From the NCBI GenBank assembly GCA_913061325.1, contig CAJXUU010000013.1, positions 1-37,074 on the forward strand: a stretch of 37,074 nt of DNA. The letters run 5' to 3'. The notes beneath the pieces are model-generated. The model worked only from the letters and a program-made list of their open reading frames with translations, was not told the DNA's origin and searched no databases. Shown here piece after piece: positions 4,471-36,203 of the stretch (position 1 is the stretch's first letter; each line of letters starts with the position of its first letter). The stretch is from an uncultured Saprospirales bacterium (GTDB taxonomy: Bacteria; Bacteroidota; Bacteroidia; Chitinophagales; Saprospiraceae). The position numbers were made by a program, and so were the translations under genes.

Positions 4471-6114
4471 ATGAAAGAACTTATATTGTCCCTATTATTC
4501 ATTTTTTATTCAAATATTCTTTTTAGCCAAGCAAATACGATAGGATTATTATATCATGATCTTGATAAAGTCGAAGAAGGTTATACACTTTTCTATCCGG
4601 AGAATCAATCAACTGTTTTCCTGATCAATAATTGCGGAGAAGTTGTACATACATGGGAAATAGATGATATAAGAGTACCTGGCAAAGAGCAGTATCTAGA
4701 TGGTTTGGGTAGATTATATTTAGCTTCAGCACAGCCTTTATTTCAAAGTCCTTCGTTTGGCTCAGGTGGCGCAGGGGGAGTGTTTGAAATACTTAGTTGG
4801 AATGGTGATGTAGAATATAGGAAAGTTCTTGCAGATTCACTGGTGAGGCAACATCACGATATACATATAATGCCAAATGGAAACATAATGGTAATAGTTT
4901 GGCAAAATGTATCTTTAGCTGAAGCGGCTTCATATGGATTTGATACACTCTCTAATCCGCAGATTGGATTTTGGCCTGACAAGATTATTGAAATTGATCC
5001 TATTATTGATTCTGTGATTTGGGAATGGAACTCAATGGATCACATGATTCAAAATATAAATACTGATTTAGAGAATTTTGGCGTAATCAATGAACATCCA
5101 GAATTAATAAATATAAATTACATAGATTTTGCATTTGGAAGACAAGATGTGCATCACATAAATTCGATCGATTATAACTCTGATTTAGATCAAATACTTC
5201 TTTCAGTTCGAAATTTTAATGAAGTATGGATAATCGATCACAGCACTACTTCTCTGGAAGCCTCCACACATTCAGGAGGCAATAGCGGTAAAGGAGGAGA
5301 TATACTCTATCGATGGGGGAATCCTGCTGCTTATAATTCAGGAGGTGTTTCTGATCAAAAGTTATTCAGACAACATGATGCTTCATGGATTATTGATGTA
5401 AATCATCCAATCAATGGTGGTATTTTATGTTATAATAATTTTATTGCATCTGAACTTAGCCTTGGTAATATATTTATTCCTGAAATAAATGCTCTAACTG
5501 GAGATTATATTTTGGATGAGAATGATATGTTTCTACCCGCTATTTTCTCTGACACTATAAATCATCCTGAAATTCTAAAGACTTTTAGCACAGCTGCTTC
5601 AAATATTCAATTGCAACCAAACGGAAATTATATGATGTGTGCTGGTAGGCAAGGTCGAATTTTCGAAGTTACGAGTGCTGGTGAATTGGTTTGGGAGTAT
5701 TTGGTTCCGATGCGAAATGGATTTCCAATTGAACAAGGAGACGAAATATCTCTATCAGAGAACTTTACGTTTAGTGGTCGAAAATATCATCCTGATTTTG
5801 AAGGATTTATAGGTAAAGATCTTTCACCAAAAGGATTTATTGAATTGAACCCTAATGATGCGTTTTGCAATTTAGTAAAGACTGAAAATATTAATATTAA
5901 TTCTGTTGTTATTTTTCCTAATCCAGTGTATGATCATTTAAATTTTAAAGAAACAATACTATCTAAAATTTCACTTATTAACAGCATAGGACAAGTTGTG
6001 AAAATATTTGATAGTCATGGAGGTGTTTCTTCTATCAATGTTTCTGAGATAAAACCTGGCCTTTATATATTAAAAATCAAGGGTCAAAATCCTGTCAAAT
6101 TTATTAAAAACTAA
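4471..6114 (+). CDS. Arylsulfotransferase-like secreted protein with T9SS type A sorting domain
   Basis: The product (547 residues from ATG 4471) opens with a Sec signal peptide ending near NILFSQ. The body resembles the arylsulfotransferase (ASST) beta-propeller families: FLINNCGEVVHTWEID, HHDIHIMPNGNIMVIVWQ, DVHHINSIDYN, FRQHDASWI and LQPNGNYMMCAGRQGRIFEV are propeller blades with the His-rich motifs of this group. Known ASST enzymes move sulfate from one phenol to another through a sulfated histidine. Activity here is inferred. The last ~75 residues carry a T9SS type A signal (VVIFPNPVYDHLNF to GLYILKIKGQNPVKFIKN), so the protein is probably surface-attached or released. A TTG at 4462 would add three residues; the ATG gives the better signal peptide. 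The stop codon falls exactly at the edge of the inverted-repeat element at 6112. Confidence 0.85.
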   Translation: MKELILSLLFIFYSNILFSQANTIGLLYHDLDKVEEGYTLFYPENQSTVFLINNCGEVVHTWEIDDIRVPGKEQYLDGLGRLYLASAQPLFQSPSFGSGGAGGVFEILSWNGDVEYRKVLADSLVRQHHDIHIMPNGNIMVIVWQNVSLAEAASYGFDTLSNPQIGFWPDKIIEIDPIIDSVIWEWNSMDHMIQNINTDLENFGVINEHPELININYIDFAFGRQDVHHINSIDYNSDLDQILLSVRNFNEVWIIDHSTTSLEASTHSGGNSGKGGDILYRWGNPAAYNSGGVSDQKLFRQHDASWIIDVNHPINGGILCYNNFIASELSLGNIFIPEINALTGDYILDENDMFLPAIFSDTINHPEILKTFSTAASNIQLQPNGNYMMCAGRQGRIFEVTSAGELVWEYLVPMRNGFPIEQGDEISLSENFTFSGRKYHPDFEGFIGKDLSPKGFIELNPNDAFCNLVKTENININSVVIFPNPVYDHLNFKETILSKISLINSIGQVVKIFDSHGGVSSINVSEIKPGLYILKIKGQNPVKFIKN

Positions 6115-6288
6115 ACTTTGAGTCCACTCCGAAAACTCCTCAACACTAAAAATGTTTCTTTTGGCGATATTTTCATTTATTTCAATTAACTGATGCTCAG
6201 GCATCACTGAATTTCAAAAAATACAAATCTCATTCAAAATAATTCATTTTGAAGAAATTGATACTTTTCGGAGTGGACTCAAAGTTTA
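6112..6288. repeat. 177-bp element with 24-bp perfect terminal inverted repeats (MITE-like)
   Basis: Bases 6112-6135 and 6265-6288 are perfect inverted copies with core GAGTCCACTCCGAAAA; 129 bases separate them. Both ends carry a TA, as expected if a transposon of the IS630/Tc1-mariner kind inserted at a TA and duplicated it. That reading is inference. The interior contains two smaller hairpins: TGATGC/GCATCA (loop TCAG, 6191-6206) and TTCAAAAT/ATTTTGAA (6233-6253). No transposase is encoded. The element sits between two convergent genes, and the outermost TAA of each arm is the stop codon of its neighbour. A long bidirectional transcription stop is the main alternative, but a 129-base spacer is unusual for that. 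Confidence 0.7.
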
Positions 6289-8127
6289 AATCTTAGAAAA
6301 CCTACTTGTCTTTACCCCTAAGTTGGTTCTCACTAAAATTGTGTAATTCCCAGTCGTTAAGTGTGAAACATTTATGTGATTTGTTGTTTTATGCGTGCTT
6401 ACAACTCTTCCAACAGCATCAAATATTTGTATAGAATTTATTTCATTCCTAGCCATTGAAATCGTCAAGTAATCATCAACTGGATTAGGGAAAAAGTCTA
6501 ACGGCTGAGGCGCTAAGTCAGATGTGTTTGTGTTTATATTTTCAGTTATATTATTTATGGCATTGACGTTTATATCATACTCTGTTTGCTTATGACTTCC
6601 ACCTGTCCAGTTAATGACTACACTATCTATGGTTTCATGTAACCCAATACCTATTTGCAATGTACTACTGTTGTGAGAGCAAAAACTAGACCCACCGCTT
6701 GTTTCTCTCATTTGTACATCTGAACCAGTGTATACATATACTTTTGATCCGAAAGCGTCTTTGTTGGCTTGCGTTCCCTCTAAGTTTATTTTAACCCAAT
6801 TATTATTGTTAATTGACTTATTCATATATAAGCAGGACGCTCCATCTAAACCAAATGTTGGCTTATCATATACCACAGAATAGATATCTACCTTCCCATC
6901 ATTATTAACATCAGAATAAGCACACCCTCTTGATGTTATTTCATTCCATATTCCAGAAGTGCTATCCATTTCAGCGAATGTACCATCTGTATTATTGATG
7001 TATAATTTGTCAGGCTCTAGATTACCATTATCTACAAATGCGGGAGCTGGTACGTATCCATTTGATATGAATAAGTCTAAATACATGTCATTGTTTACAT
7101 CTGCAAATAATGTACCCCAACTAATAGACAATGAGCTATCTTTAGCTACCAATTCATTTTCAACACCAGCTTCTTCTTCAGCCTGTGAAAATGTTCCTCC
7201 TTCATTTTTAAGAAATACATTTTTGCCCAGATTTGAAATATAATAGTCAAGATCAAGGTCATTATCGTAATCACCTACTGCTATACCCATTGAAAACATT
7301 TCATTGTCACTATTTGTAGACATACCTACTTCTGTGAATTTACCATCTTCGATATCGTTCCTATATAGTTTATTAGGTTGTATGAAAGGTCCAAAGTCGT
7401 TGCCTAGTAGTATATCTAAATCCCCGTCATTGTCATAATCCGAAGCTGTCACGGTAAGTGCACATCCAGTATCACCTAAGCCAAGTTGATTTGTTGTATT
7501 TGTAAATGTTCCATCCCCATTATTTCTATACATATAGTTAGAATAGCATTCATGATCAAATCCATTTATTTGATTCATATCATCATATGTAAAAATGACT
7601 TCATCTACATAATTAACATTATAAATATCTAGATCACCATCTAAATCATAATCTAAGAAAACAGTACCCATGGTCATACTTTTATCAGTGCTTGTAGGCC
7701 ATATATTAGTAAAAGTCATATCTCCATTATTACGAAAAAGCATATTATAGGTATAGCTACCATCAATTCCAGCATGAGTATTTACAAAGAAATCTTTATC
7801 CCCGTCATTGTCAATATCTCCATAGGTAATTCCAGCGGTATATATTTCTGAAGTAATTTCTAAACCTGTTCCTTCAGTAACATTCGTGAAAAATCCAGAT
7901 CCATCATTGATCATCAATTTATCTACTTCTTTACCTCCTGTTAAGTAAACATCATCATCGCCATCATTGTCAATATCAACAAATGCTACGCCTCCTCCAT
8001 TGAAATTGGTATGATAAAATTTATGTTCGAGGTTTCTTTCGACCTGTTCTTCTGAAAATAGGATTGATTGACCTATACAACTGAAAGTAAATAATATAAG
8101 TATGATTGTAGATATTGATGTCTTCAT
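6286..8127 (-). CDS. Secreted FG-GAP/VCBS-repeat protein with ASPIC/UnbV domain and T9SS signal (CRTAC1-like)
   Basis: The 613-residue product starts with a signal peptide (IILILFTFSCIGQ). About residues 40-420 hold repeated acidic loops such as DIDNDGDDDVYLTGG, DIDNDGDKDFFVNT, DYDLDGDLDIYNVN and DYDNDGDLDILLG, which are FG-GAP/VCBS propeller blades with DxDxDG calcium-binding loops. An ASPIC/UnbV domain follows (WVKINLEGTQANKDAFGSKV to SVVINWTGGSHKQ). The last ~70 residues (DFFPNPVDDYLTISMARN to TSRFSKI) are a T9SS type A sorting signal. Such proteins are exported and usually taken as adhesins or binding scaffolds; no enzymatic role is visible. It is the second gene of a minus-strand pair, 26 bases behind a paralogue of the same architecture. 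Its stop lies at the edge of the inverted-repeat element. Confidence 0.88.
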   Translation of the reverse strand: MKTSISTIILILFTFSCIGQSILFSEEQVERNLEHKFYHTNFNGGGVAFVDIDNDGDDDVYLTGGKEVDKLMINDGSGFFTNVTEGTGLEITSEIYTAGITYGDIDNDGDKDFFVNTHAGIDGSYTYNMLFRNNGDMTFTNIWPTSTDKSMTMGTVFLDYDLDGDLDIYNVNYVDEVIFTYDDMNQINGFDHECYSNYMYRNNGDGTFTNTTNQLGLGDTGCALTVTASDYDNDGDLDILLGNDFGPFIQPNKLYRNDIEDGKFTEVGMSTNSDNEMFSMGIAVGDYDNDLDLDYYISNLGKNVFLKNEGGTFSQAEEEAGVENELVAKDSSLSISWGTLFADVNNDMYLDLFISNGYVPAPAFVDNGNLEPDKLYINNTDGTFAEMDSTSGIWNEITSRGCAYSDVNNDGKVDIYSVVYDKPTFGLDGASCLYMNKSINNNNWVKINLEGTQANKDAFGSKVYVYTGSDVQMRETSGGSSFCSHNSSTLQIGIGLHETIDSVVINWTGGSHKQTEYDINVNAINNITENINTNTSDLAPQPLDFFPNPVDDYLTISMARNEINSIQIFDAVGRVVSTHKTTNHINVSHLTTGNYTILVRTNLGVKTSRFSKI

Positions 8128-14734: not shown

Positions 14735-15931
14735 ATGGCTAAAGAAACTTTTCAACGGACCAAACCTCACGTCAATGTCGGTACGATCGGCCACGTGGAT
14801 CATGGTAAAACAACACTAACCGCAGCAATAACTTATGTATTGGCTGAGGAAAATGGATCAGAAAAGATGAGTTACGATTCTATCGATTCAGCTCCAGAAG
14901 AAAAAGAAAGAGGTATTACAATCAATACTGCTCACGTTGAGTACGAAACTGCGAACAGACACTACGCTCACGTAGATTGTCCTGGTCACGCAGATTACGT
15001 AAAGAACATGGTAACGGGTGCGGCTCAGATGGATGGTGCTATACTAGTAGTTGCGGCTACAGATGGTCCTATGCCTCAAACAAGAGAGCACATTCTACTT
15101 TGTAGACAAGTAGGTGTACCTAAGATTGTAGTATTCATGAATAAAGTGGATCTTGTTGACGATCCTGAAATGCTTGAACTGGTAGAAATGGAAGTAAGAG
15201 AACTTCTTGATCAGTACAAGTTTGATGGAGATAATGCTTCAGTAATCCAAGGTTCTGCACTTAAGGCTCTTGAAGGAGACGCTGATGCAGCTTTGCAAAT
15301 CAAAGAATTGATGGCTGCTGTTGATGCTGATATTCCTGAGCCAATAAGAGATGTAGAAAAGCCTTTCTTAATGCCTATTGAGGATGTATTCTCAATTACT
15401 GGTAGAGGAACAGTAGCTACAGGTAGAATTGAAAGAGGTGTGATTAATACTGCAGATCCAGTTGAGATCATCGGTATGCAAGCAGCAGATGCTAAGCCAC
15501 TTACTTCAGTATGTACAGGTGTAGAAATGTTCAGAAAGATCCTTGATAGAGGAGAAGCTGGTGATAACGCTGGTCTACTTCTTAGAGGTATTGAAAAAGA
15601 TATGATCAAAAGAGGAATGGTAATCTGTAAGCCAGGTTCTGTAACTCCTCACTCTCATTTCAAATGTGAAGTGTATGTATTAGGAAAAGATGAAGGTGGA
15701 CGTCACACTCCATTTTTTAACGGATATAGACCACAGTTTTACTTCAGAACTACTGATGTAACTGGTGATGTATCTCTTCCAGGCGGAGTAGAAATGGTAA
15801 TGCCAGGTGATAACGTTACACTTGAAGTGAAACTTATCAACCCTATTGCGATGGATAAAGGACTTAGATTTGCAATTAGAGAAGGTGGTAGAACCGTAGG
15901 TGCAGGTCAAGTAACTGAAATTATTGATTAA
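14735..15931 (+). CDS. tuf: Translation elongation factor Tu
   Basis: This 398-residue GTPase delivers aminoacyl-tRNA to the ribosomal A site. The G motifs are intact: GHVDHGKT (residues 19-26), the switch region with [19 protein letters not shown] and NKVD. Domains 2 and 3 follow, with [13 protein letters not shown] and the C-terminal [11 protein letters not shown]. Length and start ([20 protein letters not shown]) are typical for Bacteroidota. It follows four tRNA genes, giving the common tRNA-tuf unit, and is closed by a strong hairpin terminator. No second tuf copy is in the window. Confidence 0.99.
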
Positions 15932-28937: not shown

Positions 28938-29162
28938 ATGGGAAGCAAAAAAGATATAATGTTATTGACTAAAAGCAAACTATCAGGAGATTCACCTCGT
29001 AAGAGTATGAAATTCAAATCTCTTTTCAATGGTGAGCAAAATGGAGTTAGTGTTAGTCGAGATCCTAACGATACCAACTATTGGTTGAATTACAAGTATG
29101 CAGTTGGGTTTAGCATGGTCGTTGGAGGACTAACTTATTTAATGTTTCAGTTCTTGTTCTGA
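28938..29162 (+). CDS. Small tail-anchored hypothetical protein
   Basis: A 74-residue frame opens with ATG 28938. Its first ~50 residues are basic and Ser-rich (KSKLSGDSPRKSMKFKSLFN, SVSRDPNDTNYWLNYKY), and one membrane segment at the C-terminus (VGFSMVVGGLTYLMFQFLF) ends the protein. This is the layout of a small inner-membrane protein with a cytoplasmic N-terminus. I know no homologue. It is kept because its composition looks coding and the competing antisense frame has no sensible start or domain. It could still be chance. Confidence 0.5.
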   Translation: MGSKKDIMLLTKSKLSGDSPRKSMKFKSLFNGEQNGVSVSRDPNDTNYWLNYKYAVGFSMVVGGLTYLMFQFLF

Positions 29163-29181: not shown

Positions 29182-29888
29182 CTAATATTTGGCTGTGGTA
29201 TCCTGCTCAACCTTTAAAGAGTTTTTTAGGACTTCGCTATTTTTCTTCTTTGGCTTAACTGTACCAAATAACTTTAGCGCAGTATGTTTTGGGTAAGTAT
29301 TAGATTCAATGATTATCTCTGGTTTTGGTCTCCGTCTTTATTGACACTATTGTATGTGATACCTATTTCACCTGATTCACCTGGCGCTATATCCAAAAAA
29401 GGGGCAGTTGGTCTAGCACAGCCACATGAAGCTTCAGCACCTATTATTTGAAGAGGAGCTTTTCCTGTATTTGTAAAGATGAATTTCTTTTTGATGATAT
29501 CACCTTCAACGATCTCTCCAAAATTCCAAATCAATTCTTCAAACTCAATTTTGCAACTTTCTTTTTATATATGTTTTTCTTTTTAACTTTAGAAGAGGGG
29601 CTATCTTGAATCTTAACATCATTAGATGTATTCTCTATTTCTCGCGATTTATTATTGTTTAATGAATCGATATTTTGGACTATCCCTTCTTTTGGTTGAG
29701 AATTGACTTTTGGAGATTCTTTATCTAAGTCTTCTTCCCCGGATTTAGACTCTTTTTTGGAAGCTGCAGATATTTTAGTCTCGTCAACCGAAGCAACATC
29801 TTTTTCTGTATTTAATCTGCATTTTATCATAAAACACAAACTGATAAGTGTCAAGATTAAAATATATATATTTTAAGTTGGTAGACAT
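29182..29888 (-). pseudogene. Frameshifted DUF1573-family gene
   Basis: Three minus-strand frames join into one DUF1573 protein. The first (29854-29531) encodes a hydrophobic signal-like start, a charged linker and VAK. Adding one base in the A4 run at 29549-29552 continues it as IEFEELIWNFGEIVEGDIIK and FTNTGKAPLQIIGAEASCGC. That second frame stops at 29313; adding one base between about 29316 and 29333 continues it as EIIIESNTYPKHTALKLFGT to a TAG at 29182-29184. A third break may lie in the TA repeat near 29863-29870: one more TA would join an ATG at 29888 (MSTNLKYIY) to the signal peptide ILILTLISLCFMIKC. DUF1573 domains are ASH/immunoglobulin-like and mostly exported; function unknown. 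Neighbouring genes show no frameshifts, which favours real decay over sequencing error. Confidence 0.75.
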
Positions 29889-29918: not shown

Positions 29919-31133
29919 TTATCTTAAGACAGAAAAGTTATCTACTTTTACAAATCCTTGGTTGGTACAGGTGTACTTCACTTTATATATGTACATTCCT
30001 GAATTTACAAGCTGCCCGTTAAATGTGCCATCCCAAGTATCTGTTTTATTTATCGCTGTCCACATTTTACCACCCCATCTATCATATATTTCGAAATACT
30101 CAAGTTGATCAATCAAGAATAGGCTGCTTATACCATAGACATCGTTGAGTTGATCATTGTTTGGTGTGAATGCATTTGGTAATAATAAATTGGAACAATC
30201 TAGTTTATCAGGATTAATGACGTTTATAGTTATTTGATCTGTAGTCATACAGTTACCTTCATTCTCTATGTTTAAGGCATAAGTTGTGGTAGCGGTTGGT
30301 GTAGCTGTAGGGTTTAAGATAGACGGATCATCAAGATCGGTATTAGGTATCCAACTGAAATTTGACGCACAAGTAGAGCCAACATTGATATCAACAGGAG
30401 ATCCAGCTATTATAGTTGTGTCATTTGATACTATTTTATCTGGATAGAGCGAACTAGCTACAATTTCAGTGGCAGAAAGAGCTCTTTGATAAAATATAAA
30501 TTCATCAATCCAACCATTAAATCTATCAAGATTAACTGCCAAACATGGACTGTTATTTATTGTAAGGCTAGCATTTTTACCAAAATTCACAATTCCATCT
30601 GAGAGGATAGTAATAGCAAGTTGATCGTCAAGATAAAGACTATAGAAAAGTTCCGATTTGGTTAATACGAGTCTATGCCAGCATACTGATTGGTCAAGAG
30701 GGACATTTTCAGTTTCTATATTACCAATATTCTGCGCCAGTTCAAAAATTATATTATTGTTAAGTGGATTGTAAGTGATCGCCATAAATGAATCTAACGA
30801 GCATTCTGATCGTACAGAAAGTATATCTGTCCTAGTTGTCACTTGATCAAAACGAAAGTAAAAACTGATTGTAAAATCTAGTTCCATCAAAGAATCGATC
30901 TCACTAGGAAATATTAAATTATCATTACTACCATCAAAATAAAGTCCATCTGCTGCAAGTCCACAAGCGCAACTTGGAGCAGAAGTAGGAATGGCAGCTG
31001 GAAGTATTCCGGCTTGATCTACAAACGTACAATCATCAAATGTATACTGTGACGTTTGACCAGTTAGAGTTAACGAAAAAAGGTTGAGCAGTAAAAAGCT
31101 AGCAGTAATTATATATTTTGAGTTGATGTACAT
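29919..31133 (-). CDS. Secreted LamG-like protein with gliding-motility-type (type B) T9SS C-terminal domain
   Basis: This 404-residue protein has a signal peptide (SFLLLNLFSLTLTGQTSQ), then a concanavalin/LamG-like domain over about residues 30-230 (GLYFDGSNDNLIFPSEID, DFTISFYFRFDQ, GWIDEFIFYQRALSATEI). A short Ig/PKD-like stretch follows (SWIPNTDLDDPSILNPTATP). The last ~90 residues are the type B T9SS signal seen in gliding-motility-associated proteins: LLPNAFTPNNDQLNDVYGI, YFEIYDRWGGKMW, WDGTFNGQLVNSGMYIYKVK. It is probably displayed outside the cell and may bind glycans. It lies 34 bases behind ybaB on the same strand, so a shared transcript is likely. A plus-strand frame at its end is a shadow. 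Confidence 0.88.
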   Translation of the reverse strand: MYINSKYIITASFLLLNLFSLTLTGQTSQYTFDDCTFVDQAGILPAAIPTSAPSCACGLAADGLYFDGSNDNLIFPSEIDSLMELDFTISFYFRFDQVTTRTDILSVRSECSLDSFMAITYNPLNNNIIFELAQNIGNIETENVPLDQSVCWHRLVLTKSELFYSLYLDDQLAITILSDGIVNFGKNASLTINNSPCLAVNLDRFNGWIDEFIFYQRALSATEIVASSLYPDKIVSNDTTIIAGSPVDINVGSTCASNFSWIPNTDLDDPSILNPTATPTATTTYALNIENEGNCMTTDQITINVINPDKLDCSNLLLPNAFTPNNDQLNDVYGISSLFLIDQLEYFEIYDRWGGKMWTAINKTDTWDGTFNGQLVNSGMYIYKVKYTCTNQGFVKVDNFSVLR

Positions 31134-31167: not shown

Positions 31168-31473
31168 TTAAGCTCCGAACATACCTGACATACCAGGTGG
31201 AAGCATTTGACTAATCATGCTTTGTGATTCTTTAGCTTCTTCTTCGCCAATCTTTATTAGTAGATTATTCATGGTTACAACAAGTAGATCTTCTAATTCT
31301 TCTTTGTTCTCAGGAGATTGATGTTTTTCGTCAATTGAGATATTGACTATTTCCCTTGCTCCATTTCCAGTGATAGTTATTCCCTCTAGTGTTTCGGAAA
31401 GGGTCACAGCTTGAAGTTTTTTCTTCATTTCTAGCTGTTTCTCTTCCATATTTCCCATTAAGTCTCCTAACAT
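31168..31473 (-). CDS. YbaB/EbfC family nucleoid-associated protein
   Basis: This 101-residue protein matches the YbaB/EbfC family. It has an N-terminal helix (MGNMEEKQLEMKKKLQAVTL), the strands SETLEGITITGNGAREIVNI, and a C-terminal helix with LEDLLVVTMNNLLIKIGEEE followed by a Met/Gly/Pro-rich tail (QMLPPGMSGMFGA). Members are dimers that bind DNA with little sequence preference. The usual dnaX and recR neighbours are absent. It is first in a two-gene unit with the LamG-like gene. Confidence 0.9.
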   Translation of the reverse strand: MLGDLMGNMEEKQLEMKKKLQAVTLSETLEGITITGNGAREIVNISIDEKHQSPENKEELEDLLVVTMNNLLIKIGEEEAKESQSMISQMLPPGMSGMFGA

Positions 31474-31590: not shown

Positions 31591-32628
31591 TTATTGCTTG
31601 ATTATTTTCTTTATTTCTTTTCCAGATTGTGCGTTTACTTGTACAAAGTACATACCATTAGGTAAATCTGAAATATCAATTCTTGTTGTTATTTCTGAGA
31701 TGGTCATGTCTTTGATAGTTTGACCTACTTCATTGAATACGATCACAGAGGCTACTTGCTGCTCATCCATATCAATCGTGATATAATCATATGAAGTTGT
31801 CGGATAGATATTGATTCTAGATACAATATTATCAGCTCTTATGACGTCAGAATATTCATATTTACCATCAAAATCTACTTGCTTTAAGCGGTAGTAATTT
31901 GATCCAGATATTGGTGATAAGTCTTCATAGTTATAGTCTACATTTTTAAATGAGTCTCCTTGTCCTTTGACAGTTTCGATGGTTTTAAAATTTTTACCAT
32001 TTGAAGATCTTTCTATATCAAATCTATCGTTGTTTATTTCAGTTGCAGTAGTCCAAGCCAAAAGGTTTGTATTAGGTTTGGCTTCCACAGTAAAAGAAGT
32101 CCATTTGACGGGTAAAGGAACAAAGCCCGTCCAAGTAATATCATCTATAGCAACTCTTTCTTGACCTCCTGAATTACTTCCTCCAATATTGTTATTAACT
32201 CTAATTACAACATCTCCTCCAATATTTACAACAGCAAAAGTTGTTGTGATTGGATCTGTGCCTAATGGTGCAGTACCGATTGAAACTCCATTAATTAAAA
32301 CATCAATTGAGCTTGTTGTGCCAGTAAATTTTCTTTGTGTTGTTATTGTCAATGATCCAATTCCACCTAAAATAATTCCAGATTCTACATATGTATTTGA
32401 AACATCGTCATTCATTGTTATAGCATTTCCATTTATTGTTTGATCTGTACGAGAATTTGTGGCTGTCCACAAAGAACCATTCTGTCCATTCCAAATTCTT
32501 TGACCATAACTGCTACTTGCTGGCGAGCAACTAGATGTACAAATGTTATTCATGGTTTCATTGCCTTGGGAGTAAATGCTTAATCCAGTGATAACAAATA
32601 AAAGAGTTAAGGGGAAAATTTTTCTCAT
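31591..32628 (-). CDS. Secreted protein with T9SS type A sorting domain, N-terminal domain unrecognised
   Basis: From ATG 32628 the product has 345 residues and a proper signal peptide (RKIFPLTLLFVITGLSIYSQ). A longer frame to 32712 would place 28 odd residues before the signal and is rejected. The N-terminal half looks like a beta-sandwich (WNGQNGSLWTATNSRTDQTI, ESGIILGGIGSLTITTQRKF, VLINGVSIGTAPLG, ERVAIDDITWTGF). A fibronectin-like linker common in T9SS cargo follows (VKWTSFTVEAKPNTNLLAWT, YYRLKQVDFDGKYEYSDV). The last ~80 residues are the type A sorting signal (INIYPTTSYDYITIDM to KEIKKIIKQ). No catalytic motif is seen. Surface or secreted location is inferred from the tail. Confidence 0.82.
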   Translation of the reverse strand: MRKIFPLTLLFVITGLSIYSQGNETMNNICTSSCSPASSSYGQRIWNGQNGSLWTATNSRTDQTINGNAITMNDDVSNTYVESGIILGGIGSLTITTQRKFTGTTSSIDVLINGVSIGTAPLGTDPITTTFAVVNIGGDVVIRVNNNIGGSNSGGQERVAIDDITWTGFVPLPVKWTSFTVEAKPNTNLLAWTTATEINNDRFDIERSSNGKNFKTIETVKGQGDSFKNVDYNYEDLSPISGSNYYRLKQVDFDGKYEYSDVIRADNIVSRINIYPTTSYDYITIDMDEQQVASVIVFNEVGQTIKDMTISEITTRIDISDLPNGMYFVQVNAQSGKEIKKIIKQ

Positions 32629-32759
32629 GCCAAATAATTTTATAGAAGTAATAAATGATAATTTAAAATAGAGTTTCCTTAATAATGGAAACACTAATAG
32701 GTTATTAGGCATGCTAATATAATCAGAAATGTAAATTATATGACTATAATCCGTAATAT

Positions 32760-34704: not shown

Positions 34705-35145
34705 ATGCAAAGATTATCGTCGAATTTGACCTTGTTTTTTAAGATATTCCTGCCCGTATTATGGGTTTCCTTTTTTGGATTTTTTGGATTAGTAATCTTC
34801 TTAATAGACCCAATGGATGAGCCATTTCTAACCTCATCTACATTCCGTATGATTTATGTAGTATGCTACATTTTGTTTTTGACATTGATCTACTTTACTA
34901 TGTTTCAACTCAAAAGGGTAGAAACTTCTGATGGATATATATATACAACGAATTATTTTAAAACAGTTAGATTTCCAATAGATAACATCAAGAAGATATC
35001 GACAATCAATTTGGGTATAACTAAGATAGCAAGAATGCACCTTCACAAGAAAGGTGTTTTCGGTAGTAAAATACCATTCATGGCCAAGAAGAGTAGTCTT
35101 GATAGTTTCAGAACAAGTCATCCAGAAGTTCAAATAGCTGATTAA
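34705..35145 (+). CDS. Hypothetical membrane protein with two N-terminal spans
   Basis: I do not recognise a family. From ATG 34705 the product has 146 residues. Two membrane segments (FFKIFLPVLWVSFFGFFGLV and MIYVVCYILFLTLIYFTMFQ) are followed by a soluble ~75-residue domain (ETSDGYIYTTNYFKTVRFPI with NIKKISTINL) that looks like a small bacterial PH-type beta domain. A TTG at 34645 would overlap the tatC stop and add 20 residues, which I consider less likely. It follows tatC closely and is probably cotranscribed. Its stop overlaps the stop of the convergent glycosyltransferase gene. Confidence 0.7.
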   Translation: MQRLSSNLTLFFKIFLPVLWVSFFGFFGLVIFLIDPMDEPFLTSSTFRMIYVVCYILFLTLIYFTMFQLKRVETSDGYIYTTNYFKTVRFPIDNIKKISTINLGITKIARMHLHKKGVFGSKIPFMAKKSSLDSFRTSHPEVQIAD

Positions 35146-36080
35146 AGCCCGAGTCGACTTTCGATTTTATATTTATTTCTACCATAGGCACTTCTGCTTA
35201 CAAGCTCCGCCACGAATCCAGCAATAAATAACTGTACACCTACGATGATGAGAAGCATGCCTAAGAAAAAGGCAGGTCTATTTGCTATTCCACTTACATC
35301 AAAAAATAACTTTGATATACTTAAATAGGCAAGCAAACCAGTTCCGAGTAATGAGATTAATATTCCCATTACACCAAAAAAGTGCATCGGTCTTTTTCCA
35401 AACTTGCCAACGAACATTATAGAAAAAAGATCAAGTGGACCATATATAAATCTTGATAATCCGAATTTTGTCACACCGTATTTTCTTGCTTGGTGTTGTA
35501 CAACCTTTTCTCCCACGTTATTAAATCCTGCCCATTTGGCAATTACAGGTATGTATCTATGCATTTCACCATAGACTTCGATATTCTTCACTACATCACT
35601 TCTGTAGGACTTTAGACCACAGTTCATGTCATGGAGTTTTACTCCGCTCATCCAACTTGTGACACCATTATATATCTTGGTAGGTATGGTTTTGGAAAGT
35701 GGATCGAATCTCTTTTTCTTCCAACCTGATACGATATCGAACCCATCATCCTTGATCATGTTATATAGTCCGGGAATCTCATCAGGGCTATCCTGAAGAT
35801 CAGCATCCATGGTAATTACAACATCTCCCTCAGTAGCTTCGAAACCAACATTAAGCGCCGCACTTTTTCCATAATTTCTACGGAACTTTATACCTTTTAT
35901 ATTGCTATTTTTATTCTGAAGATCAAGGATAGTATTCCAAGAATTATCAGTACTACCATCATCAATGAATAAGACCTCATAAGAATACTTGTGCTCTATC
36001 ATGACTTTTTCAATCCATTGACTTAATTCAGGCAATGATTCTTCTTCATTAAGGAGTGGTATGACAACTGATATATCCAA
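35142..36080 (-). CDS. Family 2 glycosyltransferase with two C-terminal membrane spans (DPM1/GtrB-like)
   Basis: This 312-residue protein begins with the GT-A fold: VVIPLLNEEESLPEL, then VLFIDDGSTDNSW, then the DxD motif in ITMDADLQDSPDEIPGLY. GVKLHDMNCGLKSYR and the following EMHRYIPVIAKWAG are typical of enzymes that transfer sugar from a nucleotide to a polyprenyl phosphate. Two membrane segments close the protein (GVMGILISLLGTGLLAYLSI, FLGMLLIIVGVQLFIAGFVA). It probably makes a lipid-linked sugar for envelope glycans; the sugar is unknown. It follows the DUF4199 gene, but a terminator lies between, so it likely has its own promoter. Confidence 0.9.
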   Translation of the reverse strand: MDISVVIPLLNEEESLPELSQWIEKVMIEHKYSYEVLFIDDGSTDNSWNTILDLQNKNSNIKGIKFRRNYGKSAALNVGFEATEGDVVITMDADLQDSPDEIPGLYNMIKDDGFDIVSGWKKKRFDPLSKTIPTKIYNGVTSWMSGVKLHDMNCGLKSYRSDVVKNIEVYGEMHRYIPVIAKWAGFNNVGEKVVQHQARKYGVTKFGLSRFIYGPLDLFSIMFVGKFGKRPMHFFGVMGILISLLGTGLLAYLSISKLFFDVSGIANRPAFFLGMLLIIVGVQLFIAGFVAELVSRSAYGRNKYKIESRLGL

Positions 36081-36094
36081 TGTATAATTTTTTA

Positions 36095-36102
36095 CAAATT
36101 TA
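36095..36102 (-). promoter_or_regulatory. -7 promoter box for the glycosyltransferase gene
   Basis: Minus-strand TAAATTTG matches TAnnTTTG and lies 14 bases before the ATG at 36080, implying a very short leader. No -33 element at the usual spacing. Confidence 0.35.
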
Positions 36103-36134
36103 ACCCTACAAATTTGGAATAGGTAATGATTAGA

Positions 36135-36167
36135 ATAAAAAAAGCCAACGACGAAGTCATTGGCTTT
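36135..36167 (-). terminator. Terminator after the DUF4199 gene
   Basis: On the minus strand, AAAGCCAATGAC (36167-36156) and GTCGTTGGCTTT (36152-36141) form a 12-bp stem with one T-G pair and a TTC loop, followed by a run of T. It lies 36 bases after the DUF4199 stop. Confidence 0.9.
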
Positions 36168-36203
36168 ATATATTTTAAATATTTGCTTTAAAATATCAGA
36201 CGA

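Follow-up and report, generated by a model that had tools for sequence, protein, structure and literature searches.

The window analysed here, a continuous stretch of 37,074 nucleotides from an uncultured Saprospirales bacterium, contains a DUF1573 gene that cannot be read in one frame, which raises the question of whether the gene has been lost from the organism or has been broken during assembly. Three-frame translation placed a single DUF1573 gene, scattered across three frames, on the minus strand from 29888 to 29182. The original prediction, made from the letters alone, was that the three frames join into one DUF1573 protein, and this was borne out by the reading frames, by Pfam and tblastn searches and by alignment with intact orthologues. 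The parts of the gene are as follows.

29182–29888, minus strand: disrupted DUF1573 gene, ATG at 29888–29886, last stop at 29184–29182 (frames, orthologue alignment, tblastn, Pfam)
29534–29872, minus strand: open piece one, 113 codons, hydrophobic N-terminal segment and Lys-rich linker (frames, alignment)
29316–29564, minus strand: open piece two, DUF1573 profile positions 1–77 of 98 (frames, Pfam)
29185–29337, minus strand: open piece three, closing part of the DUF1573 domain followed by the C-terminus (frames, tblastn)
29862–29871, minus strand: break 1, ATATATATAT stretch, one base more than in both relatives, where the reading leaves the frame set by the ATG (frames, alignment)
29549–29552, minus strand: break 2, A4 run (minus-strand reading) where the linker ends, placed from the frames within 29534–29564 (frames, alignment)
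29323–29326, minus strand: break 3, A4 run (read on the minus strand) inside the domain, one base fewer than in the relatives (alignment)

The three pieces tile the gene, with pieces one and two overlapping at 29534–29564, and contain no nonsense codons of their own. Relative to the intact orthologues the coding frame is disrupted, as seen by both alignment and tblastn, and translation from the ATG at 29888–29886 halts after 34 codons at a stop at 29786–29784. An internal start for piece one was considered at a TTG at 29854, downstream of an in-frame stop at 29873–29875, and was rejected; the product would be without the charged residues with which the relatives' N-terminus begins, and piece one in any case does not contain the domain. 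Scans for promoter-like sites (16, versus 21.0 in shuffled sequence) and terminator-like sites (2, versus 1.6) gave nothing beyond chance.

Piece two matched the DUF1573 family (PF07610) with 71.6 bits against a cut-off of 26.1, and carries the conserved SCGC motif of the family. It differs from the family in that no single open frame of the window spans all 98 profile positions, the remainder of the domain being in another frame. Neither piece one nor piece three alone matched a Pfam family, and in tblastn piece three extended the match of the orthologues. Piece two also scored above the cut-off of PF22544 (HYDIN/CFA65/VesB-like Ig domain), overlapping PF07610, and gave 47.8 bits with NCBIfam NF041425 (OS_HP2 seleno protein), which is under the model cut-off of 100. 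In a set of 46 other DUF1573 domains 23 columns are conserved to 80% or more; at one of these columns the window has a different residue, and so do the three orthologues. The hydrophobic N-terminal segment, the Lys-rich linker and the one Ig-like domain with SCGC together suggest that the product would be an envelope protein. A selenoprotein table includes a form of DUF1573 whose motif is UGC (PMC9312934), and a DUF1573 gene is among the iron-dependent genes tabulated for Bacteroides thetaiotaomicron (PMC10434189); no role is assigned to DUF1573 in the sections of these two sources that concern it.

Alignment with two intact genes (L036, within stretch L048 of genome G002, and L037, within stretch L046 of genome G001, both from MAGs of uncultured Saprospiraceae bacterium) showed the window out of register at three places, so each break is genuinely present in the assembled sequence. 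A missing base had been proposed for the A4 run at 29549–29552, which the frames confirmed. The linker aligns poorly and the gaps chosen by the aligner fell upstream of that run, leaving the window one base short modulo 3 ahead of the domain; break 2 is put at or just before the run because the frames, not the aligner, place it there. The break proposed near 29316–29333 does lack one base, and its place was refined to 29323–29326. The loss of a TA had been suspected near 29863; there is a break at the TA stretch, and the relatives suggest that one base was gained instead, which is equal modulo 3. The ten-base TA stretch is absent from both aligned orthologues. It is true, as was originally pointed out, that the sites lie in or next to short repeats, but this is weak evidence since the window holds 643 single-base runs of at least four. 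The 28 other ORFs considered in the window contain 512 runs of 4–7 bases, of which 366 are of exactly four and 146 of 5–7, and those ORFs are still open; they are open by definition, and the ones beyond approximately 12.7 kb were additionally compared with relatives.

The genome that contains the window (G000; 5.98 Mb, 555 contigs, 94.8% complete) was compared with three congeners, as the original prediction had recommended. Syntenic orthologues were found on G001:C35 (which holds L037), G002:C37 (which holds L036) and G003:C118, and the gene is intact in 3/3, open over 264, 259 and 230 codons respectively among the matches listed. Identity across piece two is 81–82% to G001 and G002 and 63% to G003. 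In this setting, within the same trio of YbaB, CHU_C protein and DUF1573, the gene occurs once per genome in all four; it is open throughout in the congeners whereas in the window it is broken. Among the matches listed for related genomes, some of which are paralogues, no DUF1573 match has an internal stop. The neighbours of the gene in the window are as follows.

29919–31133, minus strand: upstream gene, intact, encoding a Laminin_G_3 domain and a CHU_C type IX secretion domain, adjoining DUF1573 in four genomes
31168–31473, minus strand: YbaB/EbfC-family gene, intact, completing the conserved trio (relatives' matches)
28938–29162, strand opposite to DUF1573: small open gene facing DUF1573; G002 has a homologous frame, also open

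The stretches of G001 and G003 gave no counterpart of the small gene. Genomes G000, G001 and G002 share the order rpoB, rpoC, DUF1853 gene and then, on the opposite strand, DUF1573, CHU_C protein and YbaB. The G003 trio is unchanged but is separated from rpoC by approximately 11 kb, and that setting gave no DUF1853 match. Genome G002 has a second rpoB-like gene (L055; G002:C88, contig positions 2034–5549) with 85% identity to that of the window, which may reflect a mixed bin. DUF1573 is the last gene on its strand before the facing gene at 28938–29162, so a downstream polar effect would not be expected. The recommended search for other copies found four other DUF1573 genes in G000, which fall in other paralogue groups common to the congeners in a domain tree; as they group with other congener genes they represent no spare copy. 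A DNA search of the G000 assembly found no second or intact copy and no strain variant of the gene.

The splitting of the DUF1573 gene exceeds chance. When the relatives' ORFs were matched to the window by tblastn, 41/45 were in one piece, some of these partial, and 4/45 were split; three of the split ORFs are the orthologues of the DUF1573 gene and one is an ORF over a tRNA cluster. This comparison covers the window beyond approximately 12.7 kb, as the first third has no counterpart in the relatives' stretches used. One of the window's other genes, at 31591–32712, encodes a protein with a type IX sorting tail; relatives match its C-terminal 150–170 residues, and the rest of the protein has no match in their stretches.

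For a wider comparison 61 stretches of G000 (1,237,074 bases, window included) were searched for matches to 773 ORFs taken from 60 G001 stretches. This gave 182 orthologue-like pairs (191,709 bp, DUF1573 gene included), 21 of which were flagged, four as split between frames and 17 as single-frame matches with stop signs. The stops in these 17 were taken to lie mostly ahead of start codons because the queries ran from stop to stop; when queries were trimmed to the first Met, 3/181 best pairs had stops well inside, namely a glycosyltransferase gene, a 100-residue ORF on L186 and a gene with a single stop on L174, the latter two without a change of frame. In the reverse direction 25/179 pairs were flagged and two were split between frames, one of them the leader of window 35145–36203. 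A 60% coverage threshold, which dropped the DUF1573 gene itself, left 85 pairs with none flagged (86 with two flagged in reverse), and a 40% threshold left 90 pairs with two flagged.

The four split genes are DUF1573, the glycosyltransferase on C20, a fragment on C37 and infB on C38; of the three besides DUF1573, infB is cleanly broken by one base and the other two are decayed. By our arithmetic a rate of one clean break in 192 kb would give 0.004 breaks in the DUF1573 gene, and three were seen in 707 bp. Three breaks in this gene versus one comparable break in the rest of the 192 kb points to either an unconstrained gene or a local fault of assembly.

The infB gene (L168, G000:C38, approximately 4843–7766) has one base missing after approximately 75 codons, while the other 901 codons are open. 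It matches TIGR00487 with 777 bits, was found once in G000 and is open throughout in the three congeners. Since infB should be an essential gene, either the break is a consensus error or the cell gets round it. Residues 307–897 of the open piece form the conserved IF-2 part, and the break lies ahead of that part; an internal start of IF2 is known in E. coli, and such a start could make the break real and tolerated. The one-base infB break suggests that false indels may be present in the assembly. The original argument that intact rpoB and rpoC genes speak against sequencing error is accordingly weaker than it looks, with this break elsewhere in the same assembly.

The family 2 glycosyltransferase gene (L074, G000:C20, approximately 14939–15728) has several frame changes and stops and is open in G001. 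It is an older pseudogene, broken several times, so G000 does contain decayed genes. The fragment on C37 (L167, approximately 7001–7323), matched in two frames with a stop by a G001 NADH:flavin oxidoreductase ORF, looks decayed. The gene on L174 (G000:C1, approximately 4512–5018) has a single inner stop relative to its G001 counterpart, which matched no Pfam family, and this stop could be either an error or a true nonsense mutation.

Selection on the domain was examined over 100 codons. Between the window and G002 there are 47.8 synonymous and 20.2 non-synonymous changes, and between the window and G001 49.0 and 17.0, with synonymous sites near saturation; 48–49 synonymous versus 17–20 non-synonymous differences indicate strong past purifying selection over nearly all of the separate history. 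Non-synonymous differences to G003 are 52.7 for the window, 51.2 for G002 and 54.0 for G001, and those to a further DUF1573 sequence, L038, are 57.7, 61.2 and 65.0, so that against these two outgroups the window's protein shows no faster change. A three-branch count without outgroup put 12.9/24.4 protein changes on the side of the window, compared with a share of 0.27 in six window genes (binomial 0.004). In the DUF1573 row of this count the fourth sequence was L038, a gene outside the G003 stretches; the outgroup count used both. The excess may partly belong to the branch common to G001 and G002, as the window retains the outgroup residue at several sites. The domain is otherwise without clear decay, and the count without outgroup hints at some. 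Purifying selection together with the lack of acceleration in the window's protein argues that the breaks are either very young or not real.

Recent inactivation of the gene in this lineage is the leading reading, to which a probability of approximately 0.55 is given, and it is favoured because three breaks fall in one gene while 192 kb held a single comparable one, in infB. The decayed genes seen elsewhere in G000 and the excess in the three-branch count also speak for it, as do the intact syntenic genes in the congeners. The same reading had originally been offered as one possibility; it now leads and is not proven. Against it are the absence of nonsense codons of the gene's own, the retained conserved residues, the lack of acceleration against the outgroups and the one-base infB break. 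These observations bear on a tentative but credible alternative, that the three breaks are consensus errors in a fragmented draft, clustered by poor coverage or mixed strains over approximately 550 bases, and that the gene in the cell is intact. Only small length changes are seen, clear further decay is absent and the domain has been kept by purifying selection, which speaks for this alternative; the assembly is in 555 contigs, and infB, found once in it, lacks a base while the gene is open in three congeners. A survey of public genomes also lends it support, reporting that many frameshift and internal-stop pseudogenes are assembly errors and naming low coverage among the causes (PMC11017572). 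However, the flanking genes are open at distances of only 31 bases (29919–31133) and 20 bases (28938–29162), the 146 runs of 5–7 bases in other ORFs of the window left those ORFs open, and the infB break itself may be real and tolerated through an internal start.

Slippage-based phase variation, in which the tracts would switch an envelope protein on and off, had been proposed from the position of all three sites in or beside short repeats, and is very improbable. No long unstable repeat tract that could set the frame was found in the gene, the tracts being A4, A4 and the ten-base TA stretch; runs of four are common in the other ORFs, simultaneous phase would be needed at three sites, and the two aligned orthologues are without the TA stretch. 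That a population of this species switches the protein by multi-site slippage in short tracts, with the assembly having caught the off state, is a shade less probable again. Least probable of all is fusion of the pieces into a full protein by programmed frameshifting or transcriptional slippage. The A4 at break 2 would allow a Lys codon to re-pair one base back, but A4 is short for transcriptional slippage, three separate events in mixed directions would be required, and the frame change is not conserved in the orthologues, each congener having one open frame and the related matches listed, paralogues among them, having no internal stop. Both mechanisms were rejected as explanations of this gene.

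Under recent gene loss, the DUF1573 gene, last of the minus-strand trio near rpoB–rpoC, would have been inactivated by small length mutations, probably of the polymerase-slippage type, and after the first inactivating change the others could have accumulated freely. The native start would then yield a 34-residue peptide and the whole domain would stand in no single frame, and the changes would be present in living cells and presumably not selected against. Small indels in an otherwise well-kept gene are shared with recent bacterial pseudogenes and with the spurious pseudogenes of draft assemblies (PMC11017572); the gene in the window differs from both in having three breaks where 192 kb compared gave one other clean break. 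If the breaks are real, the lineage can do without a DUF1573 protein that three congeners retain next to the same pair of genes. If they are not, the small frame breaks in this assembly, including that of infB, are no proof of gene loss. Under either reading the finding is an ordinary one, of little import beyond this genome.
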